From positions 1 to 64,000 of the forward strand of contig NZ_VRZC01000004.1 in assembly GCF_016743215.1 (NCBI RefSeq): a stretch of DNA of 64,000 bases, in the 5' to 3' direction. Both the position numbers and the translations under genes were made by a program. The notes under the pieces were generated by a model. The model saw only the letters and a program-made list of their open reading frames with translations, did no database searches and was not told the DNA's origin. This DNA is from Geminocystis sp. GBBB08. GTDB taxonomy: Bacteria > Cyanobacteriota > Cyanobacteriia > Cyanobacteriales > Cyanobacteriaceae. Below are positions 126 to 36,753 of the stretch, in pieces; the first letter of the stretch is position 1, and every line of letters begins with the position of its first letter.

Positions 126-2215
<2,090 letters not shown>

Positions 2216-2216
2216 A

Positions 2217-3017
2217 TTGATGAAAAAAGTCGCTTATTTGTATTTATTGTCACCTTTACACACTGGTGGAGCGAGTCAAGAAGGTAATGTTGTGGCCATT
2301 GCTAGAGAAGTTCATACAGAACTACCTTACGCTCCTTCTAGTACAATGAGAGGAAGATTAAGAGCCACTACGCCTGATGATCAAAAAAATATACTCTGGG
2401 GTAATACCCTTGAAGATGTCACCGCAGGTAATGACGGTAATTTAACTCAGGGGTTATTATGGGTTGGGGACGCTTCAATTTTATGGTTTCCCGTTCCCTC
2501 TTTAAGTCATGGCATCGTTTGGATAACATCACCTTTTTTGTTAAGACGTTGGTTAAGATTAATTGACACAGATTTAAACTTACCCTCAGTTGGTAGTTTT
2601 AGTCATCAAGAAAACAATCAAAATCTTTACCTTAAAGATGCTGTTTTTCAATCTTCTGAATTAACGGGTTGGCATAATTGGCAACAATATATCCCCAATG
2701 GTAATGATGAAGTCGAGACTATTTCTAAAGTTTTAGTACTTTCCGATCAAGATTGCCAAATTTTAATTCAATCTAGTTTGTGGCGACAGGTAAAAATAAA
2801 ACTGGATAACGATAAACAAGTTGATGGTGGTTTCCGTTATGAAGAAGCTATACCCCCAGAAACTTTAATGTTTTTTCCTTGGGGTCTAACGACTGTAGCT
2901 AATGGCAATGCTACTAATGCTATTTCATCTTGTCAAACAATTATTCAAAACAATGATTGGCAATTTGGCGGACAAGAAAGTTTAGGTCGTGGATTTGTTG
3001 AACTATGGAGTAATTAA
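2217..3017 (+). CDS. cmr4: Type III-B CRISPR RAMP protein Cmr4
   Basis: YLYLLSPLHTGGASQEGNVVAIAREVHTELPYAPSSTMRGRLR; operon position. Confidence 0.88.
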   Translation: MMKKVAYLYLLSPLHTGGASQEGNVVAIAREVHTELPYAPSSTMRGRLRATTPDDQKNILWGNTLEDVTAGNDGNLTQGLLWVGDASILWFPVPSLSHGIVWITSPFLLRRWLRLIDTDLNLPSVGSFSHQENNQNLYLKDAVFQSSELTGWHNWQQYIPNGNDEVETISKVLVLSDQDCQILIQSSLWRQVKIKLDNDKQVDGGFRYEEAIPPETLMFFPWGLTTVANGNATNAISSCQTIIQNNDWQFGGQESLGRGFVELWSN

Positions 3018-3032
3018 TTAGGAGTAAAAATT

Positions 3033-3443
3033 ATGTTTTATGATCCTCGCAGTATTTCTAGCAAAGTATATCACAATCTACAGAATTTAAAAGATCAAAC
3101 ACCAACAGCAACAGATCAACAAGAACAAAAAAGCCAAAGTGTAGAACTATATAATTACGTTGCAACTTGGGGATTATTTCGTCTTAAAGCAGAACAAAAA
3201 GCCCTTAATCAAGAACAAAAGAAAAAAGTAGTTAAATGCTTCTTTGAAACTTTAGAGCAAATAGCTTTCCCTGATAATAATAATCAACAATTATCGAGCA
3301 ATTCAGGTTTAAATTATCTTTCCAGTCCGACAATGAATACTTCCAAATATTTAGGATTAACTGGATTAGCTTTACAAGTAGCTCGTGAATTTGCATTTTG
3401 GGCAGAAGCTATTTATCCTAAAGAAAAAAAGAAAAAAAAATAA
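3033..3443 (+). CDS. cmr5: Type III-B small subunit Cmr5
   Basis: Small helical protein with YLGLTGLALQVAREFAFWAEAIYP; between cmr4 and cmr6. Confidence 0.75.
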   Translation: MFYDPRSISSKVYHNLQNLKDQTPTATDQQEQKSQSVELYNYVATWGLFRLKAEQKALNQEQKKKVVKCFFETLEQIAFPDNNNQQLSSNSGLNYLSSPTMNTSKYLGLTGLALQVAREFAFWAEAIYPKEKKKKK

Positions 3444-3490
3444 ATGCAGTTATTTTGTGATTATTAGTTTTTTATTAGTTTTGAGGAATA

Positions 3491-5317
3491 TTGATTATGC
3501 TAAATAAACCTTCTCCGTGGCGAACAGGCGTTGATATAGAACCTAGTAAAGATGCTAGTTTTATTGAATATTTACGCTGGATGCGAGTTAAATCAAATAA
3601 TGGAACAGAAGACAGTGGTACAATTTTGCAATTGTTTGAAAAAATAGAATCTAGCGATTATTCTGAGACTTTAAAAAGATTAACAAAAAGAACTCAAAAA
3701 CTAGCTCATTTGTCTTTAAAAGTGGGATGCCCTTGGCGAATTCGTGTAGGGGGTACAAAAGGAGTTGAATCCATGCTTTTACCCGCTTTTGACGCTTTGG
3801 GAATCCCTTATATTCCTAGTACTACCCTCAAAGGAATTGCACGGGAAATGGCGAAACAAGACAAAAATTTAACCGATAGCGATATTATCAGGATTTTTGG
3901 AGATATTGAGACCGAGTCTTGTATGGGAAACGTTACTTTTTTAGATGCCTACCCTCTGCCTGGAAGTAATAAAAAAGGTGGGTTGTCAGTTGATATGGCT
4001 AATTCTATATGGAAGTGGAATGATAATAGTCCACCACAATATAATACTAATTCAAATACTTTTCTTTCTCTTTTAAAAACAATTTTTGTTATTGGTTTAA
4101 GAAAAAACTCTGACTGTACAGATCAAGATTTTGAGACGGTAAGAGATTTATTGATTAAAGGATTAACTCAAGGAATCGGCTCAAGGGTTAATAGTGGTTA
4201 TGGAACATTGAAAGCTATTGACGAAAAACTGAAATCTAAAATTGTTCCCAAAAAAACTATTATCAAAGTGGGATTTGATTTAGAAGGACAATTAATTCAT
4301 GGTGGACAAAAATTTATTGGTTGGAATCTCACTCAAAATGGTAATAATTGGAAACCACCGGGCAAACCTGAGTCAGAAGTTCGTCCTATTGCTTTTCGAT
4401 CAATGTTACGTTATTGGTTTCGTTGTTTAGCTTTAGGAGTTTTAAATCCATCACAGGTAAAAGATTTAGAAATAGAAATTTTTGGGGATATTGAACCAAA
4501 ATCTAATGATAACCAAGCAAGAGCCACCACTGGTTTATTTCGTTTAGAAACAACTGGAAAAGTAGGACAAAAAGAATCAACTAAAAAAGAATCAGGTTTT
4601 GTTTATGGGAAATTAAGTATTCGTCATAATACCTATTCATATCGTTTAGAAAGAAATAAAAAAGAAGCATTAGAAAATATTTTGCAAAGTCTCACTTGGT
4701 TAATGTTTCATTTAGGCGGAATTGGACAAGGTGCGAGAAGACCATGCTATAAAAGGACAGATGGTAATCCTCCTTGGCGTGGTTCAAATCTAATGCCTCC
4801 AAATTCAGAAATAAAAGAAGGTGATAATTTTTGGAGTTTACCTGCAAACTTATCAGATTTTCAAACACAATTTCGACAGCAATTAAAAACTTTTTATCAG
4901 TCTTTAGCTAGTTTTGGCAATTTACCAATTAATTATAGTCATTCTCAGTTAAAAACTGTCAATTCATCACAAGATTGGATGGAAGCAATCGATAAAAATT
5001 GTTCTATCATTATTTGTAAAGGTAATTCTAGGAATCATAAACCTTTTGCTTTATCTATTTTGCATAGTGAAGATTTTAAAATTGAGAAAACTAGAAAAAG
5101 AAATGGCAAAGAAGAAAAATATTTAGATTATGATCCTCAATTATGTGGTTCAACCCGTCAACCTTCACCTATTTGGATTCGTCAATTAAATTATGTTGAA
5201 GGAATTGACTATCAAGTTGTTACTGTTTTTGGTGCTACAAGTGGAAAAAGACAAGAATTTCTGACTAAATTAAGGGAACAAAGCATTCAATACCATCCAA
5301 TTTTTCCATTAAATTAA
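3491..5317 (+). CDS. Fused Cmr6-Cmr1 RAMP protein
   Basis: N half Cmr6-like (PAFDALGIPYIPSTTLKGIAREMA...GLTQGIGSRVNSGYGTL); C half Cmr1-like (GQLIHGGQ...PIAFRSMLRYWFRCLALG...GGIGQGARRPCYKRT). Confidence 0.8.
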   Translation: MIMLNKPSPWRTGVDIEPSKDASFIEYLRWMRVKSNNGTEDSGTILQLFEKIESSDYSETLKRLTKRTQKLAHLSLKVGCPWRIRVGGTKGVESMLLPAFDALGIPYIPSTTLKGIAREMAKQDKNLTDSDIIRIFGDIETESCMGNVTFLDAYPLPGSNKKGGLSVDMANSIWKWNDNSPPQYNTNSNTFLSLLKTIFVIGLRKNSDCTDQDFETVRDLLIKGLTQGIGSRVNSGYGTLKAIDEKLKSKIVPKKTIIKVGFDLEGQLIHGGQKFIGWNLTQNGNNWKPPGKPESEVRPIAFRSMLRYWFRCLALGVLNPSQVKDLEIEIFGDIEPKSNDNQARATTGLFRLETTGKVGQKESTKKESGFVYGKLSIRHNTYSYRLERNKKEALENILQSLTWLMFHLGGIGQGARRPCYKRTDGNPPWRGSNLMPPNSEIKEGDNFWSLPANLSDFQTQFRQQLKTFYQSLASFGNLPINYSHSQLKTVNSSQDWMEAIDKNCSIIICKGNSRNHKPFALSILHSEDFKIEKTRKRNGKEEKYLDYDPQLCGSTRQPSPIWIRQLNYVEGIDYQVVTVFGATSGKRQEFLTKLREQSIQYHPIFPLN

Positions 5318-5319
5318 CT

Positions 5320-5736
5320 ATGCCTGTTAGAGATATTTACCATAATCCAGTTAAAAATGCTTTAATTAAAGATGGTTGGACAATTACCGATGATCCTTTA
5401 ATATTATCCATTGGCAAAAAAGATGTATTCGTTGATTTAGGGGCAGAAAAATTAATTGCTGCTGAAAAAGAAAATCAAAAAATTGCCGTAGAAATCAAAA
5501 GTTTTATCGGTAAATCCCAAGTTAATGACTTAGAAAATGCGTTAGGGCAATATATTCTATATCACGAAATTTTATTAGAAAATCAAGAGGATAGACTTTT
5601 ATTTTTAGCACTAAAAAAATCAGCCTATGAAGAAATTTTTGAAGAACCGATCGGTAAAATTTTAATAAAAAGAAAGTTACTAAAATTAATTGTTTTTGAT
5701 GAAAATAAGGAGGTGATTTTACAATGGATAAATTAA
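5320..5736 (+). CDS. xisH: XisH family protein (PD-(D/E)XK-like fold)
   Basis: MPVRDIYHNPVKNALIKDGWTITDDPL...DVFVDLGAEKLIAAEK...KIAVEIKSFIGKS; D...ExK pattern visible. Starts 2 nt after the cmr6-cmr1 stop. Confidence 0.88.
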   Translation: MPVRDIYHNPVKNALIKDGWTITDDPLILSIGKKDVFVDLGAEKLIAAEKENQKIAVEIKSFIGKSQVNDLENALGQYILYHEILLENQEDRLLFLALKKSAYEEIFEEPIGKILIKRKLLKLIVFDENKEVILQWIN

Positions 5737-6059
5737 CAGAATTTTATAATATTATTTATCCCATTATTAAAGAATATGCAGATTTACCTTATTATGACAA
5801 AAATCTTCAGCATAAATTAGTTATTAGTGATGATCATAAAGATTATTTATTGATGACTATTGGCTGGAAAAATGACGTAAAAATTCATGGTTGTGTTGTT
5901 CATTTAGAAATTATTAACGATAAAATTTGGATTCATCGAGACGGTTTAGAAGATGGCATTGCTGATGATTTACTAAGGGCAGGTATTCCTAAACATGAAA
6001 TTGTTTTAGCTTTTCATCCCCCAGAAATTAGACATTTAACTGAATTTGCTGTTAATTAA
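5724..6059 (+). CDS. xisI: XisI family protein (copy 1)
   Basis: HGCVVHLEIINDKIWIHRDGLEDGIADDLLRAGIPKHEIVLAFHPPEIR; overlaps xisH by 13 nt. Confidence 0.88.
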   Translation: MDKLTEFYNIIYPIIKEYADLPYYDKNLQHKLVISDDHKDYLLMTIGWKNDVKIHGCVVHLEIINDKIWIHRDGLEDGIADDLLRAGIPKHEIVLAFHPPEIRHLTEFAVN

Positions 6060-6106
6060 TTTTGGGAGTTTTTAATTTTTGATATTAATTCAGAGGAAAT
6101 CGTGCA

Positions 6107-6496
6107 ATGGATACCAGAAATAACTATAGCCAAATAATTAAAAAAATTCTTATTTCTTATACCGAAATACCCTACAATGACCTTAATATTAAATTTGAAA
6201 CAGTTTTTGATACAGAGCAAGATCGTTATTTATTAATGCTTGTAGGTAGCGAACAAGTTAATTATCCATTTCCGACTACTAAAAGAGTGCATGGTTGTTT
6301 AATTCATGTAGATATTATTGATGATAAAATCTGGATTCAAAGGGATGGTACAGAAAGAGGTATCGCTACAGATTTATTAGAAGCAGGTATCCCCAAAAAT
6401 AAGATTGTTCTAGCGTTTTATGCCCCTGAAATTAGGGAAGAAACTGGCTTTGCGTTGCTTAATTTCCTCATTCGCATCAAAATTTATCTATTTTAG
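6107..6496 (+). CDS. xisI: XisI family protein (copy 2, divergent tandem paralogue with altered C-terminus)
   Basis: HGCLIHVDIIDDKIWIQRDGTERGIATDLLEAGIPKNKIVLAFYAPEIREETGFA followed by an atypical tail. Confidence 0.85.
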   Translation: MDTRNNYSQIIKKILISYTEIPYNDLNIKFETVFDTEQDRYLLMLVGSEQVNYPFPTTKRVHGCLIHVDIIDDKIWIQRDGTERGIATDLLEAGIPKNKIVLAFYAPEIREETGFALLNFLIRIKIYLF

Positions 6497-6541
6497 AATA
6501 AATCTTTTATATTAATTAATATCACTAAGGAGAAATAAATT

Positions 6542-8275
6542 ATGACAGACTTACAAAAAGATAAAGCAGTTTTAGTAGCTAATATTGGTACTTCAGACCT
6601 AGAAATTTATTTAAAAGATGAAAAACAAGATTATGGTTATATTCCATTATGGGATCGCAACCAACCGAATAACGCCGAAGATCAACATGAATTAACAGAA
6701 CAAGAAATTAAAAATTGGAATCAACGAGCCAGTCTAATAAAAGATATATTGTGTCGAGAATTGGATGTTTCTACCAGAGAAGGGAAAGGATTACCTTTTG
6801 AATTTGTAGAATTAACTCAAAAAATAAAAGAAGTATATAATCAAAATAAAGAAACATGGGAAAAGCGGATTTTTGCTAGTCGTTTATTAGGTATTGTACA
6901 AGAAGTTCAAAATAGTTTTGCACTGGAAAAAATTCTTATTTTTGTTTCTAAACAAAACCCCATTTTTGAATCTGATACTTTACATCTTTTTGATATTCTA
7001 CAAAAATGGTTTCAGGATAAATATCAAATACAGTTAATTCCTAAATATATTGATCAGGATATTAATTTGAGTCGAGATCAAGATGCTTTATTTGAATACT
7101 ATTACAAAGTTTTTAAATCCTTCAGTTTAGACTATACAATTCTTCTCAGTCTTAAAGGTGGTACTCCAGCTATGCAAACCGCTTTAAGAACACAATCAAT
7201 CACAATTTCTGTAGAAAGACCTATTATTTTAGTTGATACAGAATTATATATTAAACGTGTTTTTTCTGGTCAACCTTCCCCTGCTTATTTTACTTCTTAC
7301 TGTAATTATATCAAAACCCAAAAATACGAATCTGTCCGCCAATTATTAGCAAGATGGGATTTTGATGGTGCGATGACAATTCTTGAAGATTGGAAAAAAT
7401 ATATTAATAATTTAATCAGACAAAATATTGTTGATCAAGATATTAAAAATAATAAGAGTTTCCTAGAATCAATAATTAAAGTTTTAGATATAACTGTTGG
7501 CTATTTTAATTTAGATAGCTCTGGACAATCACGATTTAAAATTAAACCTCAAGATGATTTAGGAGTTTTAAATAACATTAAACATGATTATGATTGTATT
7601 CTTAATCTTTATACCCAATGTCGAATTTATTGGGAAATAAATCAAGTAGCTAATTTTTTAGCTCGTATGACATCTTTTTGTGAAGAAATTTTACATTTTC
7701 TAATCAAAAAGTTAGATGGAGAAAAGTTTTTTGACAAGCAACAATATCCTGATGACTGGTATTTAGATAAGAGAAAATTTACTAATAATTCATCTCAGCT
7801 ATGGCAATATTTTTCTCAATTAGAAAGAGAAACAAGTAGGACATTTAACAATTGGAACTTCGATTTAAAGCCTAAATATAAATTATCAGGACGTTTTAGT
7901 AAATGGAATTTTGTTAGTGCCTTAATTCGATACAGAAATTATGATGAAGAAAAAACTTCATGGGGTAAAATTACTGATTCGCTAAATAAATTAGACTATT
8001 GGATTGATCAACGTAATAAGTTAATTCACAGTGCTGAGGGAGTTTCTAAAGCTAATATGTCAAAATTATTAGAAAATGATCGAGAACAACAAGATGAAAA
8101 TGCTCTAAATGCTTGTAAAAGAGATGAAATTTTATCTAAAATGACTACCATTACCATTGAAATGAGAAAGATATTAAAACTTCCTGAAACTAATTATATT
8201 GCTTTAGATCAGTCTTATTATATTTATTCTGATGTCAAAGAATGGATAATAAATAAGCTCAGAAATGATAGTTGA
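6542..8275 (+). CDS. CARF-HEPN CRISPR-associated ribonuclease (Csm6/Csx1-like)
   Basis: N-term AVLVANIGTSDLEIY and ILLSLKGGTPAMQTAL (CARF-type); C-term RNKLIH (RX4H HEPN motif, aa 491-496). Confidence 0.8.
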   Translation: MTDLQKDKAVLVANIGTSDLEIYLKDEKQDYGYIPLWDRNQPNNAEDQHELTEQEIKNWNQRASLIKDILCRELDVSTREGKGLPFEFVELTQKIKEVYNQNKETWEKRIFASRLLGIVQEVQNSFALEKILIFVSKQNPIFESDTLHLFDILQKWFQDKYQIQLIPKYIDQDINLSRDQDALFEYYYKVFKSFSLDYTILLSLKGGTPAMQTALRTQSITISVERPIILVDTELYIKRVFSGQPSPAYFTSYCNYIKTQKYESVRQLLARWDFDGAMTILEDWKKYINNLIRQNIVDQDIKNNKSFLESIIKVLDITVGYFNLDSSGQSRFKIKPQDDLGVLNNIKHDYDCILNLYTQCRIYWEINQVANFLARMTSFCEEILHFLIKKLDGEKFFDKQQYPDDWYLDKRKFTNNSSQLWQYFSQLERETSRTFNNWNFDLKPKYKLSGRFSKWNFVSALIRYRNYDEEKTSWGKITDSLNKLDYWIDQRNKLIHSAEGVSKANMSKLLENDREQQDENALNACKRDEILSKMTTITIEMRKILKLPETNYIALDQSYYIYSDVKEWIINKLRNDS

Positions 8276-8326: not shown

Positions 8327-8554
8327 ATGCTTAATATCGAATATTTAACAGATCAAAATGGTAAAACTAAAGCAGTAGTTATTCCTATTGAATTATGGCA
8401 AAAATTATTCTCTAATAATGCTATAAATTTCGATAATTTAGCTGAATTGATCGAAGATTATTGTTTAAATAAAGCAATGGATGAGGCTAAATTAACTCCT
8501 TTATTAGACAGAGAAAAGGCTTTAAAATTTTTAGAGGAGAACATTAAAAATTGA
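8327..8554 (+). CDS. Antitoxin-like small protein, apparently orphan
   Basis: MLNIEYLTDQNGKTKAVVIPIELWQKL; resembles cyanobacterial Phd/YefM-like antitoxins; no intact toxin ORF follows. Confidence 0.5.
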   Translation: MLNIEYLTDQNGKTKAVVIPIELWQKLFSNNAINFDNLAELIEDYCLNKAMDEAKLTPLLDREKALKFLEENIKN

Positions 8555-8603: not shown

Positions 8604-10757
8604 ATGTTATGTCACTTTTTAATCGGTATTCCGGGAGCTGGTAAATCAACTTTTGCCCAACTTTTAGCCCAACTTTATCACTGTCAAATTATCTCCACTG
8701 ATGATATTAGAAAGGTGCTTTATGGAGATGAAATTATACAGGGTAATTGGTTAGAAATTGAAGCTGAAGTCATTAACCAAATTCAAAAAGCGATCGCCCT
8801 TAATACTCCAGTTATATATGATGCTACCAACGCTCAACGATCATGGCGGATGGATTTATCACAGAAATTAGAAAGAAATATCGGTAAAATTGACTGGTTA
8901 GCATGGTATCTTAATATAAATCTAGAGACTTGTAAACAATGGAATAGCCAAAGAAAAAGACGAGTGCCAGAGGAGATTCTTGATAAAATGAGAAAAACCC
9001 TCAAACAGTTTCCTCCCCATGTAGCTGAGGGATTTATTGATGTTAAGGTAATTAAAAACCCTCAAGAGTATCAAAAAGAATTTATTGAGCAAAAAATTAA
9101 TTGTTTAAATCGTAGTTTAATTAATCGACAAAACCGTACTAACAACAATAATTTAGTTTTACATTCTTATTCAAGGTTATTAGATTTCGATCGATTAATG
9201 CACCTCATTTCTTTACTGATTAACTATCCAGATTTAGGTAATTTACAGTTTACCAATCCTGATATTTTAGAGCAAATCTTTGGTAAATCCATTAGTTTTG
9301 ATAACTCTTTATCAGAAATTACGGCGATAATGGCAAAACTTAAAGGTACTATTTATGCTGATAAAATATTGATTCAACAAGATTTACAATTTTTAATTAA
9401 TTATGGTTTTATTCGAGATCATAATGCTCCCTTAAAAAATAGTAATTTCTTAGTTAATATAGAAGAAATAACCCCTAATATTCACAAAAATTTGATTACT
9501 CATTACGCTTCCGACAAATATACCTTTGAGCGAATTTTAAACACGATTAAAACCATTACTTATTACCCTTTTTCTCCTAAAATTGAGCCTGAACAATTAC
9601 AAGAAATTCAACCTATTAAAACCAGAAATAAAGATAAACTAAATAATATTCCTAGTGGTACTTTGACTAATTTAGCTTTTGAATTAATTATCCTAGAAAA
9701 TAGCAATGAACGTTATCTAAATACTAGGCGTGATTTACTCAGAAAAGATATTGAATTTATCCTTAATCCTTATCAACTTTTCCCCCATAATATTATGCGT
9801 AACGGTTACTTTTTTGGTACTGGTATTCTCACAGAAAATGAATTAATTCAAACTTTTCGGTTATTACAAACTCAAGCAAAAAATCTTGATGATCCCCTTG
9901 CTTTAGATTTATATAATAAACTTGAAACTAAAATGAAATGGGCTTATTTTGATGAACATTATAGCTATCCTGTGAGATCGATCGCTCATTATTCCATGAT
10001 TGATACTGATTCTTTAGATCAAAAAACTTTAGTTAATCAAACTCATAGAATTGAGGAAATAATCGAACAAAGAAAATTAGTAAAACTCAATAAATTTGCT
10101 AATCGTCCTAATCATGAAGGAGAAAAAATCGGCTCTTTTTCAGCATGGTTATTACAGATAGTTTTTTATAATTTTGCATGGTATTTAGCCTTTGAATATC
10201 ATGGAAGAGAACAGGATGGTTTACTGCGTTTAGAAAGACTCGATCGACTTTATTTAGAGAGTGAATTACCAGAAACTAGAGAGAAAAAAGAACAAGAAAA
10301 AGCCTTAAAAAAATTAACTCAATTATTGTCAGCTAGTGCCGGAATATTTTTAGGGAACGATGCTAGTAAACAAAAAGCCTTTTTAAGTAGCAATAAAGAA
10401 GAACAAAAAACGGCAGAAATAACTATTGAATTATGGTTTAGTGAAAATATTTTTAACTTTATTGCTGAAGGGACAAAAAGATTTCCTCCACAACGAATGA
10501 AGATGACAAAACCATCTAAATCAATATCGAATTTCAGTCATCATCAATCATTATTTACTCTTAACAAAAGTAAGGATATAGAAAAACCCTATCGTTTTCA
10601 AGTAACATTACCACAATGGTCATTGCAAGATTATGATTTACTGCGATGGATTCTCGGTTTTGGAGGACAAGTTAAAGTTCATAAGCCACAAGAACTACAA
10701 GATAAAATTATCCAATTATCTACTAATACCCTCAAAGTATATGAAAAAGTTGTGTAA
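8604..10757 (+). CDS. Polynucleotide-kinase-like P-loop domain fused to wHTH-WYL-WCX regulator
   Basis: Walker A GIPGAGKST and ISTDDIRKVLYGD...VIYDATNAQRSWR (PNK/zeta-like kinase); C half WYLAFEYHGREQDGLLRLERLDRLYLE (WYL) and LRWILGFGGQVKVHKPQEL (WCX-like). Confidence 0.75.
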   Translation: MLCHFLIGIPGAGKSTFAQLLAQLYHCQIISTDDIRKVLYGDEIIQGNWLEIEAEVINQIQKAIALNTPVIYDATNAQRSWRMDLSQKLERNIGKIDWLAWYLNINLETCKQWNSQRKRRVPEEILDKMRKTLKQFPPHVAEGFIDVKVIKNPQEYQKEFIEQKINCLNRSLINRQNRTNNNNLVLHSYSRLLDFDRLMHLISLLINYPDLGNLQFTNPDILEQIFGKSISFDNSLSEITAIMAKLKGTIYADKILIQQDLQFLINYGFIRDHNAPLKNSNFLVNIEEITPNIHKNLITHYASDKYTFERILNTIKTITYYPFSPKIEPEQLQEIQPIKTRNKDKLNNIPSGTLTNLAFELIILENSNERYLNTRRDLLRKDIEFILNPYQLFPHNIMRNGYFFGTGILTENELIQTFRLLQTQAKNLDDPLALDLYNKLETKMKWAYFDEHYSYPVRSIAHYSMIDTDSLDQKTLVNQTHRIEEIIEQRKLVKLNKFANRPNHEGEKIGSFSAWLLQIVFYNFAWYLAFEYHGREQDGLLRLERLDRLYLESELPETREKKEQEKALKKLTQLLSASAGIFLGNDASKQKAFLSSNKEEQKTAEITIELWFSENIFNFIAEGTKRFPPQRMKMTKPSKSISNFSHHQSLFTLNKSKDIEKPYRFQVTLPQWSLQDYDLLRWILGFGGQVKVHKPQELQDKIIQLSTNTLKVYEKVV

Positions 10758-12849: not shown

Positions 12850-13042
12850 AAAAATATTAATTTACACAAGAGGTTAATGCTGAATTAATTAGATAAAAGT
12901 TGCCGAAAAATATTCTGATGAGAGTAAGTAATAGGTTTTAATCATTAGAAATTAGCAATTACGCCACAAGATGCCTATTCCACAACTATCAATTAATCAT
13001 CCCCCATTCTTTAATTCTGAACAAGAGGTTTAAACCCCTTGT

Positions 13043-13173
13043 TAATTCCTTATTCCTCATTCTTAATTCCTCATTCCTCATTCCTCATTCTTAATTCCTC
13101 ATTCCTCATTCCTCATTCTTCATTCCTCATTCTTCATTCCTCATTCTTAATTCCTCATTCTTCATTCCTCATT
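13043..13173. repeat. Degenerate tandem repeat of TCATTCCTCATTC(T/C)-type units
   Basis: Directly visible run of ATTCCTCATTC / TTAATTCCTCATTC units in the gap downstream of pgm. Confidence 0.9.
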
Positions 13174-13179
13174 ACCTAT

Positions 13180-14823
<1,644 letters not shown>

Positions 14824-18989: not shown

Positions 18990-19060
18990 TTAATCTAAAA
19001 AAGAACAGATAAACTATTGACAGTTTTAAAAGTTTTTGTTATTATAAAGATATAAAATAA

Positions 19061-19115
19061 AAGCCACCTTTTCTTGAGCCGTAGCGCTCGGGGGGAGGTG
19101 GCTTGTCTTTTTTTT
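19061..19115 (+). terminator. Candidate Rho-independent terminator / structured RNA between the ureohydrolase gene and chlH
   Basis: AGCCACCT...AGGTGGCT stem with nested GAGC/GCTC stem, followed by TTTTTTTT. Confidence 0.65.
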
Positions 19116-23224: not shown

Positions 23225-23483
23225 TATCATAATGGTAGCGACAAGATATAATGATAATGGAATCATCATCAACTTGATAGACTAATCGATGTTCTTGATT
23301 GATTCTTTTTGACCAATATCCTTGTAATTCATGTTTTAAAGGTTCTGGTTTACCCAATCCAGTAAAAGGATTTTTTTGTGTATCCTTTAATAATAATAAA
23401 ATCTTTTTAAATATTTTCTTGTCTGTATTTGCCCAATAATTAAATTGTTCAAATGCGTTAATTTCAAAGGTTATTTTTCTCAT
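23214..23483 (-). CDS. yoeB: YoeB/Txe family toxin
   Basis: KNPFTGLGKPEPLKHELQGYWSKRINQEHRLVYQV...IISCRYHYD. Confidence 0.93.
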   Translation of the reverse strand: MRKITFEINAFEQFNYWANTDKKIFKKILLLLKDTQKNPFTGLGKPEPLKHELQGYWSKRINQEHRLVYQVDDDSIIIISCRYHYDTKQ

Positions 23484-28842: not shown

Positions 28843-28995
28843 AAATTTTAGATTATAATGAAGTGAATAAAATCTACGCATAATACCATAAAATATTTAC
28901 GAAAAATCATAAAAATATGTAGAATGTGAGTTAATAAGCCTATGATGAAAGTCAAAGCCCTCTTGATAATCATACCGTTAAAAAATTGTTAAAAG

Positions 28996-31900
28996 ATGCA
29001 ACCATTATCAAACGGTAATAATTTAAAAAAAATACATTTTCCGAATCTTTCTCTTCAATGGGTATTAATTATCCCTTTTGTAGTGCAAATTGTCGTTGCG
29101 ATGAGTTTTGTCGGTTATATTTCTTATCTTAGTGGGCAAAAAGCGGTAAAAAATATTACTGATAAATTAATGACAGAAATTGGGGAAAAAATAGAACATC
29201 GTCTCAATAATTACTTAGATGTTGCACAACAAATTAATCAAATTAATAAGCAAGTAATTGAATCAGAATTAATTTCGCCTCAAGACTTTGATAAATTAAG
29301 TAAATATTTTTGGCAACAACTACAAAATCATGATTTTACTTATATTAATTATGGTAATGAAAAGGGCGAATTTATTGGTGTTGGTTATGCTGAGGGTAAT
29401 CTTGAAATAGCGGAAATAAAACAGCCTAATCTTGACATTCTTTACAGTTATAAACCTGATGAAAAAGGTAATAAAATTTATCCGCCTATGATCTTCAAAG
29501 GACAAAATCCTAACGATGCTAACTGGTATTCTCAAGGGATAAAAGCGGGTAAACCTATCTGGAGTAATATTTATAATTGGGCTGATATACCGACAGAAGT
29601 AGCTATTTCTGCTAGTGCGCCTGTTTATAATTCATCTAATCAGATTATGGGGGTTGTGGGTATTGATTTAAGTTTGTCGAAAATAAACACTTTTTTGCAA
29701 GGATTAAAAGTGGGAAAAACAGGAAAAGTTTTTATCGTGGAAAAATCAGGTTTATTAGTAGCAAGTTCTACGACCATAAAGCCTTATAAATCAATAAAAG
29801 GTAAATCTGAGCGTCTTTCTGTTAAAGAAATTGATGATTCTTTACTTAAAAAAAGTCTGAAAATTATTAATGATCAATTTGCTAATATCGCCTTAATTTC
29901 TGGAGCGGAAAATCATATTTTTCTTGCTGATAATAATACTTTTGTTCAAGTTATTTCCTATCACAATAATTATGGTATTGATTGGTTAATTATTATTGCT
30001 ATCCCTCAGTCAGATTTTACAGCAGAAATTAAACAAAATATTACAAATACTATTTTATTTTGTTTTTTAACTTTAATCATTGCTATTGTTATAAGTATTT
30101 GGACTACTAAATGGATTAATCGTCCAATTTTACGTCTGTGTTTAGCTAGTGAATCTCTCGCCCAAGGAAATTTTAATTATTGTTTATCTGAAGATACAAA
30201 AATACTTGAACTAAATATTTTAGCAAAATCTTTTAATTTAATGACAAAGCAAATTCAACAAACTGTTAACGAATGTGAAAGTCGTTATCATCAATTAGTT
30301 GAACAACAAACAGATTTTATTTTGCGATCGCTACCTGATACGACAATTACTTTTGCCAATGATTCTTTATGTCATGCTTTAGGTTGTAAATTAGAAGAAA
30401 TAATGGGACAAAAATGGGTAAATTTTGCTGATGAAGAAGATTTAGAAAGTATCTTAGAACAAATATCATTACTGACTCCTGAAAATAATAACTTTATGGC
30501 GGAAAATCGAGATCAAAGAAGCAATAAAGAGATAGGTTGGACCCAGTGGATTAATCAAGGTATTTTTAATGAACAAGGAAAATTAATCGAAATTCAATCG
30601 GCTGGAAGGGATATTACTAAACTGAAAGAAATTCAATTAGCGTTACAAGAAAGTGAAACTAGATTTCAAAAAATTGCCGTATCATCTCCCGGAATTATTT
30701 ATATTGTAGTGCAACGTCCTGATGGTTCACAATATTTTGAGTACATTAGTTCGGTAGTCGAAGAAATATTAGAAATTACCCAAGAAGAAGTATTAAGAAA
30801 TCCTGAGAGTTTTTTCAATCAATTTCACCCTGATGACATCGCTGGTTTTGAACAAGCAGTATTAGAGAATATTCATACTATGTCACCCTTTCATTATGAA
30901 TGGCGTATGATAACTCCTAGTGGTAAACTAAAATGGTTACAAGCCAATGACCGACCAGAATTAAGAAAAGATGGTAATGTAGCATGGGCGGGAGTGATGT
31001 TAGATATAACCGACACCATTGAGTCAAAATATCGCTTGGAAAAACTAGCGAATCAAATACCGGGGGTAATTTATCAATATCGTTTATCTGTTGATGGTAA
31101 GTCATCTTTTCCTTATGCTAGTCGAGGTATTGAAGATATTTATGGAGTTACTCCTGAAGATGTAAAAGATAGTGCTGATAAAGTTTTTGAAGTACTTCAT
31201 CCCGATGATCAAAATATGATTTTAGATAGTATTCTTGAATCTGCCAGTAATTTAACCCCTTGGTATTGTGAATATAGAGTTTGTCATCAAGATGGTACAG
31301 TTATTTGGGTTTTAGGGCATTCAATACCACAAAAAGAAATTGATGGCAGTATCATTTGGCATGGCTATATTACTAATATTACTGAACGTAAGCAAATAGA
31401 AATTGATTTAGAACAAGCCAAAAAAGAAGCAGAAGCTGCCACAAAAGCCAAAAGTCAATTTTTAGCTAATATGAGTCATGAAATTCGCACTCCGATGAAT
31501 GGCGTGGTAGGGATGGTGCAACTTCTTTCTCTGACTGAATTAACCAATGAACAAGCAGATTTTGTTAATACTATTAAAAAAAGGGCTGATACTCTGTTAA
31601 CTGTTATTAATGATATTCTTGATTTTTCTAAAATTGAATCGGGGATGATGGAAATAGAAGAACATCCTCTCATGTTAGAAGATATAATTAAATCGGTGAG
31701 TCGTCTTTTTTGTAAACAGGCTCTCGATAAAGGCGTTAATCTTAACTATGAAATTGATGATTGTGTTCCTAGTCAGATTTTAGGAGATAGTTCTCGTTTA
31801 CAGCAAGTTTTACTTAATATTATTGGTAATGCCCTTAAATTTACGGAAAAAGGCGAAATTTTAATTTTTGTGAATGTTATCTCTCCTCTATCTCCCCTTC

Positions 31901-32676
31901 ACAAAAGAAGAAGTAACCCCCCTCAATCCCCCCTAAAAATGGGGGAAGGTAATAAAACAGAAGATAAATTGTTGATTATTAGTATCAAAGATGATGGTAT
32001 TGGTATTAGTGGCGATCGCATCAATAAATTATTTAAACCTTTTACCCAAGCGGATGCTTCCATTAACCGTCAATACGGAGGTACTGGTTTAGGATTAGTT
32101 ATCAGTAAAAACTTAGTTGAATTAATGGGGGGAAAAATGTGGGTAGAAAGTCAAGGCAATATTGGGGGTAATCCTCCTGATAATTGGATTTTAAAATCGA
32201 CAACGAAAGGCTCAACTTTTTATTTTACCCTTCCTATCAAAGAAGTTTTTAATAATGAAAAAGAACTAAAAATAATATCAGAAAACCTTTTTACCCAACC
32301 CAAAATCAAAAAATCAAATCTGAAAATACTTCTTGCTGAAGATAACAAAGTTAATCAAAAAGTAGCCTTATTAACCCTGAAAAAATTAGGTTATAAAGCG
32401 GATGTTGCTAATAATGGTTTAGAAGTTTTAGCAATGTTAGAAACACAATTTTATGACGTGATTTTAATGGATATGCAAATGCCTCAAATGGATGGTGTCA
32501 CTGCGACACAAATTATCCGTGAATCTTCAAAACTACAGCCTTATATTATTGCTTTAACCGCTAATGCCTTAGAAAGTGATCGTCAATTATGTTTTAAGGT
32601 AGGAATGAATGATTATCTTAGCAAACCTATTGCCATGGCACAATTACAAGAGGCGTTAGAAAATGTCAAAATATAG
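28996..32676 (+). CDS. Hybrid sensor histidine kinase (Cache-HAMP-PASx3-HisKA-HATPase-REC)
   Basis: FLANMSHEIRTPMNGVVGM, GTGLGLVISKNLVELMGG, ILLAEDNKVNQKVALLTLKKLG...VILMDMQMPQMDG. Confidence 0.93.
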   Translation: MQPLSNGNNLKKIHFPNLSLQWVLIIPFVVQIVVAMSFVGYISYLSGQKAVKNITDKLMTEIGEKIEHRLNNYLDVAQQINQINKQVIESELISPQDFDKLSKYFWQQLQNHDFTYINYGNEKGEFIGVGYAEGNLEIAEIKQPNLDILYSYKPDEKGNKIYPPMIFKGQNPNDANWYSQGIKAGKPIWSNIYNWADIPTEVAISASAPVYNSSNQIMGVVGIDLSLSKINTFLQGLKVGKTGKVFIVEKSGLLVASSTTIKPYKSIKGKSERLSVKEIDDSLLKKSLKIINDQFANIALISGAENHIFLADNNTFVQVISYHNNYGIDWLIIIAIPQSDFTAEIKQNITNTILFCFLTLIIAIVISIWTTKWINRPILRLCLASESLAQGNFNYCLSEDTKILELNILAKSFNLMTKQIQQTVNECESRYHQLVEQQTDFILRSLPDTTITFANDSLCHALGCKLEEIMGQKWVNFADEEDLESILEQISLLTPENNNFMAENRDQRSNKEIGWTQWINQGIFNEQGKLIEIQSAGRDITKLKEIQLALQESETRFQKIAVSSPGIIYIVVQRPDGSQYFEYISSVVEEILEITQEEVLRNPESFFNQFHPDDIAGFEQAVLENIHTMSPFHYEWRMITPSGKLKWLQANDRPELRKDGNVAWAGVMLDITDTIESKYRLEKLANQIPGVIYQYRLSVDGKSSFPYASRGIEDIYGVTPEDVKDSADKVFEVLHPDDQNMILDSILESASNLTPWYCEYRVCHQDGTVIWVLGHSIPQKEIDGSIIWHGYITNITERKQIEIDLEQAKKEAEAATKAKSQFLANMSHEIRTPMNGVVGMVQLLSLTELTNEQADFVNTIKKRADTLLTVINDILDFSKIESGMMEIEEHPLMLEDIIKSVSRLFCKQALDKGVNLNYEIDDCVPSQILGDSSRLQQVLLNIIGNALKFTEKGEILIFVNVISPLSPLHKRRSNPPQSPLKMGEGNKTEDKLLIISIKDDGIGISGDRINKLFKPFTQADASINRQYGGTGLGLVISKNLVELMGGKMWVESQGNIGGNPPDNWILKSTTKGSTFYFTLPIKEVFNNEKELKIISENLFTQPKIKKSNLKILLAEDNKVNQKVALLTLKKLGYKADVANNGLEVLAMLETQFYDVILMDMQMPQMDGVTATQIIRESSKLQPYIIALTANALESDRQLCFKVGMNDYLSKPIAMAQLQEALENVKI
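31881..31950 (+). repeat. C/G-rich palindromic repeat embedded in HATPase coding region
   Basis: CTCTCCTCTATCTCCCC...AACCCCCCTCAATCCCCCCTAAAAATGGGGGAAGG, translated SPLSPLHKRRSNPPQSPLKMGEG. Confidence 0.7.
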
Positions 32677-32800
32677 GAATGAGAAGAAATTTAATTATGA
32701 TTAAATCTTGTAAAATGAATTTTACACCTAACAAATAACTTTAATTGAAGTAAAGTAAAAACTTAATAAAATACAAGTATATTTTTTTTTCAAAGCTATA

Positions 32801-32844
32801 GTAACAAAAAAGTAACAAAAAGGTAACAAAAAGATAACAAAGAG
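32801..32844 (+). promoter_or_regulatory. Four 11-bp direct repeats (GTAACAAAAAG) upstream of second kinase
   Basis: GTAACAAAAAA GTAACAAAAAG GTAACAAAAAG ATAACAAAGAG, exact 11-bp phase. Confidence 0.6.
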
Positions 32845-32979
32845 TTTCAAGCCTTTGCCTTATATTACTTCTATACAATTAATTTTGCATTAGTATTACT
32901 ACTAACATTGATTTTATAAGTAATTAACCAAACTTGATATTTATTATTTATTTCAGCGATAATTTTATGGTTTTACACA

Positions 32980-35900
32980 ATGCAATCACCATCAAAAGAT
33001 CATAATTCAAAAAAACCTCGTTTTCCGAGTATCTCTCTGCAATGGGTGTTAATTGTTCCCTTTGTAGTGCAAATTGTCGGGGCAGTGGGATTAGTAGGTT
33101 ATTTGTCATATCGTAGTGAACAACAATCCCTTCAAAAATTAATCCTAGAAATTCACCGACAAACCACTGATAACGTAGTTCAGTATTTAGATAACTATTT
33201 AGCCACCCCCACGTTGATAAATCGCATTAATGCTGACGCTTTTCGTTTAGGATACCTGAATCTTAAGAATACATCTCAATTAAGGCAATATCTTTATTTT
33301 CAATTACAACAGTTTCCTACGGTTAGTCATATTATGGTAGGTACGGAAGAAGGTGTTTTTCAAGTAGCAAATCGTAATCCTTTTCCCACTATCCTAGAAA
33401 CAAATACGGATAATCCTTCCGAACTTAAGATTTATAGTGTTAATTATCGGGGGGAAAAATTAGCTTTAATTGATACTATTAAAAATTTTCATCTCAAATC
33501 TCGCCCTTGGTATGAAACTGCGGTAAAAACAGGCAAACCAATATCAATACCGATTTTTCAATTAGCAGATAATACTGATTTTTCTCTTAATAATAGCCGT
33601 CCTATTTATGATGAGAAAACTGGTAAATTATTAGGGGTTTTTTCCGCCGCAGTGGATTTAACTTTTTTTCGTCATTTTATTTCTAGTTTACAGATTGGTA
33701 AAAATGGTCGAGTATTTATTGTTGATAAAAATGGCTTTTTAATTGGTACTTCTAGTCATAATTTGCCCTTTCGGAAAAAAGAAAAAAATGGTGAAATTAT
33801 CCTCGAAAAAATTAAAGCTATAGAAAGTGAAGATCCGTTAATTCAAGCTACAAGTCGTTATTTATTGAGTCAATTTAATGATTTTAAAAAGCTCAATCAA
33901 AAGTTACAATTAGATTTTTTAAAAGATGATGATCAACGTCGGCAATTTGTACAAGTTGTTCCATATCACGGTGGTTTAGGATTAGATTGGTTAATTGTCA
34001 CAGTTGTACCAGAAGGGGATTTTACTGCAAAAATAATAGAAAATAATCAACGGACAATTTTATTATCTTTAATGACTTTTATCACGGCAATAGTCATAGG
34101 AATTTTAACAATTCGTAGTATTAATCGTCCTATTTTAAACATAAGTAAAGCTAGTCAATCTTTAGCAGAAGGAGAATTTAATGAACCTTTATCAGAAGAT
34201 AATATTATTACTGAAATTCGGACTTTATCAATATCTTTTAATCAGATGTTAGCACAAGTTTCTCAATCTTTTGATCAAGTTGAAGTTGCTTTACAAGAAT
34301 CTCAAGAAAAATATCAAATTCTCTTTGAAATTTTACCCATTGGTATTTTAATTACCGATGAAGATGGTAAATTAATCGAAGGAAATCCGATTTTAGGAGA
34401 GATTTTAGGAGTTTCTCCCCAAGAATATATGGAAAATTTAGAAAATAGTCATCCTTCTTGGCAAGTAATTCATGGAGATGGTACTATAATGTCTATATCA
34501 GAATTTGCCAGTGTGAGAGCATTAAGGGAAAATTGCTTTATTCATGATGTAGAAAAAGGTATTGTTCAACCTGATGGTAGTATTCACTGGTTAAGTGTTA
34601 GTGCTGCCCCTATTCCTCTACCTCATTATGGGGTAGCTATTGCTTATATAGATATTACGAACCGGAAGAAAACCGAATTAGCACTACAAAAAAGTGAAAC
34701 TAGATTCCGTCGATTAAGCGAAAATATACCCGGTATGATTTATCAATATGTAAGAGATACAAATGGCATTGATAAATTTACTTATGTAAGTAGTAAATCC
34801 TTAGAAATTTATGAAGTTGAGCCTGAAAAAGCAATAGAAAACTCTGGTTATATATGGGAAAAAATACATCCAGATGATGTACCAGGATTACAAAAAGAAG
34901 TAAATATGTCTGTCATAGAGTTAAAGCCTTTTTTTTCGCAACATCGGTTAATTATGCCTAATAACCACATAAAATGGATTCAAGTCATCGCTCAACCTTA
35001 CAAAGATGCTCCCGGAAATGTTTTTTGGGATGGTGTCATTTTTGATATTACCGATCGCAAAGCGACAGAATTAGAGTTACAAAATAGTGAAGCAAAATAT
35101 CGTCATCTTATCGAATATTTACACGCTGGAGTAGTTGTTCATACAGAAGATAGTAGTATAATTTTATGCAATGCTATGGCTTGTGACTTATTAGGCTTAA
35201 CTTCTGAACAAATGTTAGGTAAATCAAAAATTGATCCTATTTGGCATTTTTTCTTAGAAAATGGTGATATTATGCCTGTAGAGTGTTATCCTGTTCATCA
35301 AGTTTTAAAAACTCAACAACCTCTGAAAAATTATATTGTCGGTATCAATAGAGAAGATAATTCAAGGGTTTGGGTTTTAGTTAATGCTTTTCCTGAGTTT
35401 GATAATGATGGAGAAATTAAGCAAGTAATCGTCACCTTTATTGATATAACTGATCGAAAATTAGCAGAAAAAGAACTAATTATTGCCAAAGAAACTGCGG
35501 AAAAAGCCACAAAAGCTAAAAGTGAATTTTTGGCGAATATGAGTCACGAAATCCGCACTCCCATGAATGGAGTCATCGGTATGGCACAGTTATTATCGAT
35601 GACACCTTTAAATAATGAACAAAAAGATTTACTTAATACCATTCAAGATAGTAGCGATGCACTTTTAACTATTATTAATGATATTTTGGATTTCTCGAAA
35701 ATTGAGTCAGGCAAATTGGAATTAGAAAAACATCCTTTTATTTTAAAAGACATCCTTAAATCTTTGTGTAATTTACTCTCGAAACAAGCCACAGATAAAA
35801 GTATCAATCTTGACTACGAAATTAGTAATAATTTACCAACAACTTTTTTAGGTGATGCTTCTCGCCTTCGTCAAATCATTTTAAATCTGATAAGCAATGC

Positions 35901-36753
35901 CCTTAAATTTACCGATAATGGAGAGATTTTGATTTGTGTGGATGTTACCTCCCCTAACTCCCCCTTAAAAGAGGAGAATCAATGGAAAAATCCTCCTCAA
36001 TCCTCCCCTCAAAGGATGGGAAGTAATGGAAGACAGGAAGAATATGAGTTGTTGATTAGTATTAAAGATACTGGTATTGGGATAGATAGCGATCGCATTA
36101 ATAAATTATTTCAACCTTTTACCCAAGCGGATGCTTCCATTAACCGTAAATATGGTGGCACTGGTTTAGGGTTAGCTATAAGTAAAAATTTAGTAGCTTT
36201 AATGGGGGGTAAAATGTGGGTAGAAAGTTTTGGTAATATTGGGGGAAATCCTCCTGAAAATTGGATTTTTAAATCTCAAGACAAAGGTGCAACTTTTTAT
36301 TTTACTGTCAATCTTCAAGTAGTTACTGATAGTGAAATTAGCACAGAAAAATCTTCCCTCAAATCAGCACAATTAAACTCAGAAATTTCTTTGTTAAAAA
36401 TTCTTTTAGCTGAAGATAATAAAGTTAATCAAAAAGTAGCTTTATTAATCCTCAAAAAAATTGGCTATACTGCTGATATTGCTAACAATGGTTTAGAAGT
36501 TTTACAGATGTTAGAAAAACAATTTTATGACGTAATTTTAATGGATATGCAAATGCCAGAAATGGACGGAATTACCACTACAAAAATGGTTCGTAAATTG
36601 TCAAAACCGCAACCTTATATTATTGCTTTAACTGCTAATGCTTTAGAAGGCGATAGACAATTATGTTTAAATGCTGGGATGAATGATTATATAAGGAAAC
36701 CTATTGCTATAGATGAACTTAAAAAAGTGTTAGAAAATATTAAAATAAATTGA
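32980..36753 (+). CDS. Hybrid sensor histidine kinase, tandem paralogue of the preceding gene
   Basis: Shared N-term (FPSISLQWVLIVPFVVQIV vs FPNLSLQWVLIIPFVVQIV), HisKA FLANMSHEIRTPMNGVIGM, REC domain. Confidence 0.93.
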   Translation: MQSPSKDHNSKKPRFPSISLQWVLIVPFVVQIVGAVGLVGYLSYRSEQQSLQKLILEIHRQTTDNVVQYLDNYLATPTLINRINADAFRLGYLNLKNTSQLRQYLYFQLQQFPTVSHIMVGTEEGVFQVANRNPFPTILETNTDNPSELKIYSVNYRGEKLALIDTIKNFHLKSRPWYETAVKTGKPISIPIFQLADNTDFSLNNSRPIYDEKTGKLLGVFSAAVDLTFFRHFISSLQIGKNGRVFIVDKNGFLIGTSSHNLPFRKKEKNGEIILEKIKAIESEDPLIQATSRYLLSQFNDFKKLNQKLQLDFLKDDDQRRQFVQVVPYHGGLGLDWLIVTVVPEGDFTAKIIENNQRTILLSLMTFITAIVIGILTIRSINRPILNISKASQSLAEGEFNEPLSEDNIITEIRTLSISFNQMLAQVSQSFDQVEVALQESQEKYQILFEILPIGILITDEDGKLIEGNPILGEILGVSPQEYMENLENSHPSWQVIHGDGTIMSISEFASVRALRENCFIHDVEKGIVQPDGSIHWLSVSAAPIPLPHYGVAIAYIDITNRKKTELALQKSETRFRRLSENIPGMIYQYVRDTNGIDKFTYVSSKSLEIYEVEPEKAIENSGYIWEKIHPDDVPGLQKEVNMSVIELKPFFSQHRLIMPNNHIKWIQVIAQPYKDAPGNVFWDGVIFDITDRKATELELQNSEAKYRHLIEYLHAGVVVHTEDSSIILCNAMACDLLGLTSEQMLGKSKIDPIWHFFLENGDIMPVECYPVHQVLKTQQPLKNYIVGINREDNSRVWVLVNAFPEFDNDGEIKQVIVTFIDITDRKLAEKELIIAKETAEKATKAKSEFLANMSHEIRTPMNGVIGMAQLLSMTPLNNEQKDLLNTIQDSSDALLTIINDILDFSKIESGKLELEKHPFILKDILKSLCNLLSKQATDKSINLDYEISNNLPTTFLGDASRLRQIILNLISNALKFTDNGEILICVDVTSPNSPLKEENQWKNPPQSSPQRMGSNGRQEEYELLISIKDTGIGIDSDRINKLFQPFTQADASINRKYGGTGLGLAISKNLVALMGGKMWVESFGNIGGNPPENWIFKSQDKGATFYFTVNLQVVTDSEISTEKSSLKSAQLNSEISLLKILLAEDNKVNQKVALLILKKIGYTADIANNGLEVLQMLEKQFYDVILMDMQMPEMDGITTTKMVRKLSKPQPYIIALTANALEGDRQLCLNAGMNDYIRKPIAIDELKKVLENIKIN
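35947..36025 (+). repeat. C-rich repeat embedded at the homologous HATPase site of the paralogue
   Basis: CCTCCCCTAACTCCCCCTTAAAAGAGGAG...CCTCCTCAATCCTCCCCTCAAAGGATGGGAAG. Confidence 0.65.

Follow-up and report, generated by a model that had tools for sequence, protein, structure and literature searches.

The window analysed here, a stretch of 64,000 nucleotides, forms the left end of contig C270 in a 4.1-Mb draft cyanobacterial genome (G000). It carries a type III-B CRISPR-Cas neighbourhood whose genes all lie on the forward strand, in the order cmr2 (C-terminal part), cmr3, cmr4, cmr5, cmr6/1, xisH, two xisI genes, a CARF-HEPN gene, a RelB-like ORF and a fusion of a kinase with a WYL protein:

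135..1091, + strand: C-terminal fragment of cas10/cmr2, truncated by the end of an insertion sequence at ~107-127
1073..5317, + strand: cmr3, cmr4, cmr5 and cmr6/cmr1 of the type III-B operon
6461..6483, + strand: putative operator AATTTCCTCATTCGCATCAAAAT (PWM score 26.8); csx1 starts 81 nt downstream
6508..6513, + strand: TATATT, candidate -10 box after the operator, from the sequence
6542..8275, + strand: csx1-like CARF-HEPN effector, first gene of a predicted operon (PADLOC PDLC01808 CARF1--CARF_HEPN, E=2e-167)
8327..8554, + strand: RelB-like antitoxin ORF of 75 aa, separating csx1 from the fusion (Pfam PF18506, E=6e-17)
8604..10757, + strand: kinase-wHTH-wHTH-WYL-WCX fusion of 717 aa, an intact ORF without internal stop
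8604..9098, + strand: P-loop polynucleotide-kinase-like domain, residues 1-165 (GIPGAGKS, STDDIR, DATN, lid RKRRVP)
9150..9479, + strand: first wHTH-like domain, residues 183-292 (hhalign homology to the second)
9489..9833, + strand: second wHTH-like domain, residues 296-410 (hhalign homology to the first)
10011..10718, + strand: WYL and WCX, residues 470-705, with W526 Y527 L528 (PADLOC, Pfam, conservation)

The fusion lies downstream of the cmr genes in a predicted operon, csx1(CARF-HEPN)-relB-like-fusion, whose co-directional genes are separated by gaps of ~50 nt. The initial annotation had placed it next to a CARF-HEPN effector in a type III-B locus, and these are indeed its neighbours, except that the RelB-like ORF, for which no toxin is evident (8327-8554), intervenes. 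Upstream, the cas10 fragment borders at 107-127 on the end of an insertion sequence, whose terminal sequence, TATAGAACCCATTTGGTATC, is matched at 28 places in the genome; the N-terminal portion of cas10 is found on a different contig (C158), with a gap between the two. The cas10 gene appears to be interrupted by an insertion sequence, and if the assembly is correct here, this strain may have a defective III-B complex. Elsewhere in the window, xisH and the two xisI genes occupy 5320-6496, between cmr6/1 and csx1 (xisH/xisI are also close to another III-B locus, L197), an array of ATTCCTC-like 7-nt repeats lies between two genes at 13024-13184, and two long repeats, ~80% identical and ~4 kb apart, span 28989-36696 and are probably tandem paralogous large genes.

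Full-length homologues of the fusion in related genomes are 60-65% identical to it. Its N-terminal domain matches Pfam AAA_33 over residues 5-134 (E=1e-19), and a profile search of the PDB, started from an alignment of 24 family members, returned the kinase domain of Clostridium thermocellum PnkP (CthPnkp) first (4gp6, E=1.8e-16), followed by PSTK (4e-14) and then T4 Pnk (5e-5). An AlphaFold2 model of the domain reached a pLDDT of 93.4 and has CthPnkp as its best Foldseek match (TM 0.80, 2.3 Å), with lower TM-scores for PSTK (0.67-0.76) and mammalian PNKP (0.63-0.67), so that structure prediction, too, favours a PnkP-type fold for the P-loop kinase initially annotated at the N-terminus of this 717-aa protein. 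At the level of substrate class the sequence appears ambiguous between polynucleotide kinases and PSTK-like kinases, as the NCBIfam models for PSTK (42 bits) and PnkP (36 bits) both score below cut-off. The active site is retained: the P-loop GxxGxGK[ST] and the general-base D-x-x-R are present, with G8, K14, D33 and R36, as well as D73, R82 and N114, kept in 57/57 aligned cyanobacterial fusions, G13 near-invariant, and the lid arginines R117/R119 found in 98% of them. Such near-invariance indicates that the predicted kinase is under selection. Domain profile searches identified no phosphatase or ligase (adenylyltransferase) domain in the fusion protein.

At the C-terminus, the WYL and WCX-like part proposed earlier is recovered by the PADLOC WYL model on residues 470-705 (E=8e-17) and by Pfam WCX (25.0 bits; cut-off 23.9). 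The literal W526-Y527-L528 is kept in 93-100% of the 57 homologues, W526 and Y527 in 98-100%. What had been described as one central wHTH-like segment resolves into two domains of ~110 residues (183-292 and 296-410) that are homologous to each other (hhalign probability 96%, E=1e-9; controls ~1%), and whose wHTH class we infer from their pattern and the WYL architecture around them. The second wHTH half also persists, without the kinase, in a 459-aa WYL protein of retron locus L176. A full-length AlphaFold2 model built from nine sequences was too shallow to be used (pLDDT 46), and the wHTH and WYL assignments therefore rest on sequence profiles.

Across 386 cyanobacterial genomes we counted 53 full-length fusions, 21 of which have cmr4 at a distance of no more than 10 kb (0.24 expected); two further ones adjoin cmr/cas10 genes where cmr4 is lost or on another contig. 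At the genome level, cmr4 is carried by 31 of 47 genomes with a fusion versus 46 of the 339 others (p=1e-13). The remaining fusions are lone copies or members of RT-effector-fusion retron operons, and the genomic setting switches at least ten times across the fusion tree. With 21/53 copies near cmr4, the fusion is not CRISPR-specific, nor is it a core component of type III CRISPR-Cas systems; the CRISPR setting of the initial annotation is thus not supported in the form given, and its CRISPR-specific version, for which a fusion found mostly outside CRISPR loci had been named as the counter-evidence, is roughly half refuted by this survey. In the viral contigs searched, we found stand-alone kinases only, none of them fused, and in phage records matches to the kinase only. 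The same family also includes a stand-alone kinase ~5.5 kb beyond the III-B cas10 on Synechocystis pSYSA (L045:11986-12501), with AlkB close by.

Picosynechococcus PCC 7002 holds two closely related fusions, SYNPCC7002_RS14620 on pAQ5, in a retron, and RS14880 on pAQ6, in a III-B locus, and both precede a methyltransferase-AlkB pair (MTase, PADLOC C3a159; L043:14147-15671 and L044:14151-15675). The methyltransferase occurs in 1/194 sampled genomes, a Picosynechococcus, and is therefore not a general partner of the fusion.

The retron operons found in relatives consist of an ncRNA, an RT, an effector with an Rx4H motif and the fusion. The RT is a PADLOC retron RT (E=1e-138) that scores best against the XI/XII/I-C models, not IX, and is preceded by a conserved region of 250 nt with a long terminal pairing, AAATCACTTG...CAAGTGATTT, in six loci (a1/a2 inverted repeats). 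Such a1/a2 pairing is a hallmark of retron ncRNAs, and by their retron RT and the predicted structured ncRNA upstream of it we class these operons as retrons; a search of the ncRNA against Rfam returned no family. In the effector, the Rx4H motif, typical of HEPN RNases, is invariant in 14/14 family members, and because Pfam gave no named family, the HEPN label rests on this motif. Cyanobacterial retrons with this effector form a group for which there is no PADLOC model (L040, L044, L110, L111, L115, L116, L117, L170, L171 and L182). The genome of the window itself carries a second, stop-broken fusion that follows a retron RT and an effector with Rx4H; this copy is split over contigs C3 (L168) and C131 (L104) and has kept the operator before its ncRNA.

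The feature that joins these settings is a DNA site. While no simple inverted repeat was found in common among the regions upstream of the fusion, TTCGTGATTCGCTTGAAAAC emerged from an alignment of divergent cas10-fusion intergenic regions, and a pattern and then a PWM derived from it led to the consensus aTTTCGTCATTCGCATgAAAA. The element, aTTTCGTCATTCGCATgAAA, lies mostly 73-109 nt before the starts of the fusion, cas10, csx18-cas1-cas2, csx1 and the MTase-AlkB pair; on both pAQ5 and pAQ6 of PCC 7002, the same site precedes the methyltransferase by 84 nt. On pAQ5, sites lie at 19055-19072 and 23422-23439. In retron loci it is found 259-293 nt before the RT, directly before the ncRNA, a distance that leaves room for the latter. 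In the average over sites, a weak -35-like signal starts 25 nt downstream of the first motif position, with a -10-like signal at 17-nt spacing behind it, which places the site just upstream of the -35, a position that would suit an activator. In the window, the site at 6461-6483 still scores 26.3 when only other loci are used to train the PWM. It lies just before the stretch of 6.5-8.6 kb that had been proposed as the promoter region to examine, and lends support to the earlier suggestion that the fusion may regulate its own locus. With up to two mismatches allowed, the 4.1-Mb genome contains three sites, all beside its two fusion copies (at csx1 in the window, at the retron ncRNA and at a gene in the retron neighbourhood), and all three have the TTTCCTC variant rather than TTTCGTC.

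The site co-occurs with the fusion well beyond the loci that defined it. A PWM from Nostocales and Picosynechococcus loci only, with hits required to exceed 12 and to lie before the fusion or an operon gene, detects the site in 18 of the 32 fusion loci held out from training (0.35 expected). In III-B loci without a fusion, 2/533 control windows contain it, and in both cases the genome has an unlinked fusion. Similarly, upstream of 64 cas10/csx1 genes from loci without a fusion, a single region scores above 12, and it belongs to a fusion-carrying genome. A strict pattern run over the 386 genomes gives 24 matches, versus 1 for the reversed pattern, in genomes with a fusion or a fragment of one, and 12 versus 14 in the others. 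The site also stands before cas10 in the unlinked III-B loci of two genomes (G226 and G146), which suggests that the putative regulator acts in trans. It was not found at lone Cyanobium-type fusions and some other fusion loci. A WYL protein of genome G131 lacks the kinase and keeps the site, so that the kinase seems dispensable for the association with the site and would be an input or output module rather than the DNA reader. Near retrons, operators also lie 73-90 nt upstream of two unknown families, one of ~200 aa (L115:16984-17592, L117:13811-14452, L176:5698-6288) and one of ~280 aa (L040:13471-14304, L115:11273-12085, and near 6187 on contig C3 of G000), whose member in L040 precedes a restriction enzyme gene.

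Taken together, we consider it likely that the fusion is a 'trigger enzyme', a transcription regulator of the WYL family that incorporates an enzyme of the polynucleotide-kinase type, and that it controls a defence regulon spanning several systems. Its predicted regulator role is well supported by sequence comparison: tandem wHTH domains would be a good fit for the direct repeat TTCG-N3-TTCG, the site accompanies the fusion in unrelated defence systems, and short WYL proteins without a kinase occupy similar places in III-B loci, rarely together with the fusion, as expected if the latter is a WYL regulator that gained a kinase. The tandem wHTH-like domains would bind TTCGTCATTCGC just upstream of the -35 in defence promoters, probably for activation rather than repression, and thus control the expression of csx1 and of the fusion itself in the home locus; in relatives, cas10-cmr, csx18-cas1-cas2, MTase-AlkB and retron operons would be controlled through the same site. 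For the kinase, our best guess from its fold and from the HEPN-type neighbours in both settings is that its substrates are RNA or ssDNA with 5'-OH ends. The WYL domain would read a nucleic-acid ligand, and the breakage of nucleic acids, by infection or by HEPN activation, would thereby be coupled to transcription. WYL domains bind ssDNA or ssRNA, and ssDNA is a ligand of the PafBC WYL domain (PMC11804915).

The same neighbours could point to a more direct task, in which the kinase phosphorylates HEPN-made 5'-OH ends for religation or degradation and the WYL-wHTH part serves as a tether or for autoregulation. We regard this as possible, though doubtful. Such a repair of 5'-OH RNA ends would agree with a closest fold that is that of a bacterial RNA-repair polynucleotide kinase, with the AlkB and methyltransferase that follow the fusion in PCC 7002, and with a HEPN-type neighbour in both settings (CARF-HEPN in 21/27 III-B loci with a fusion, Rx4H in 14/14 retron effectors). 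However, CARF-HEPN is also found in 23/40 III-B loci without the fusion, a difference that is not significant (p=0.12), the annotated windows yielded no ligase, phosphatase or Hen1, many fusion copies are lone, and the common promoter site indicates a regulatory role regardless. Cas10 and the CARF effectors of III-B loci would instead fit a kinase that phosphorylates linear or cyclic oligoadenylate products, with the WYL domain as their sensor, but the same fusion and site recur in retron operons, which have no cyclic oligoadenylate synthase, making this very unlikely.

As binding of the site by the fusion is predicted from their co-occurrence, the site might be bound by another conserved regulator or a sigma factor, with the fusion merely co-inherited; one genome (G310) has a III-B locus with the site before cas10 and no fusion detected in its assembly. 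Against this stand the near absence of the site from the control regions and the match between its direct repeat and the tandem wHTH-like domains, and we think it unlikely. Quite unlikely as well is that the fusion modulates the HEPN effector or the retron complex directly, in the manner of the winged-helix DNA-binding protein of type IX retrons, which is encoded next to the RT together with a HEPN protein (PMC13405049). The operon in cyanobacteria likewise pairs a HEPN-like protein with a wHTH-WYL one, but its RT is not best matched by type IX, and homologous retrons (L170, L171 and L182) have the HEPN-like gene without the fusion.

Within the preferred reading of a WYL trigger-enzyme regulator, a stronger version would make it a new class, in which the kinase works on 5'-OH ends generated during infection or by HEPN RNases, its product is sensed by the WYL domain, and one operator switches on a shared regulon of type III-B interference and adaptation, CARF-HEPN effectors, retrons and MTase-AlkB; we offer this tentatively, as rather unlikely to hold in every part. 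In the open-access literature (subscription papers were outside the scope) we found no description of the kinase-WYL fusion, the site, or a regulon of CRISPR and retrons. It is largely an open question how several immune systems are coordinated in bacteria, and here one regulator family and one site appear to join III-B CRISPR, cas1-cas2, CARF-HEPN and retrons into one regulon, an idea made directly testable by the two fusion copies of PCC 7002. The question of WYL ligands also gains a handle, as the attached enzyme limits which ligands are possible.

A functional precedent for such an arrangement is provided by NadR and BirA, trigger-enzyme regulators in which a catalytic domain is fused to a DNA-binding domain, although the enzymes, folds and ligands of the fusion differ from theirs. 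With the kinase domain of CthPnkp (PDB 4gp6/4gp7/4mde) the fusion shares the fold (TM 0.80), the P-loop, D-x-x-R and the lid arginines, but in place of phosphatase and ligase-like domains it carries wHTH-WYL-WCX. Type IX retrons resemble the retron operons in combining an RT, a HEPN-like effector and a wHTH protein (PMC13405049); the cyanobacterial RT, in contrast, belongs to another clade, the effector has a canonical Rx4H, and the wHTH protein is the kinase-WYL fusion. Closer in context are the short WYL proteins (~400 aa) of cyanobacterial III-B loci, which correspond to its wHTH-WYL-WCX half, have a similar place near cas genes and, lacking the kinase, are found in 12/40 loci without the fusion versus 1/27 with it (p=0.01); the shared site was not found in their III-B loci. 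WYL regulators are known near CARF and CRISPR loci (PMC4012209), and the WYL protein BrxR controls BREX (PMC9122601). Like PafBC, DriD, BrxR and Sll7009, the fusion combines predicted wHTH, WYL and WCX domains in a context of defence or damage, with a candidate DNA site near promoters, but it differs from them in its N-terminal kinase, its second wHTH-like domain, and one site common to CRISPR, retron and other defence operons.
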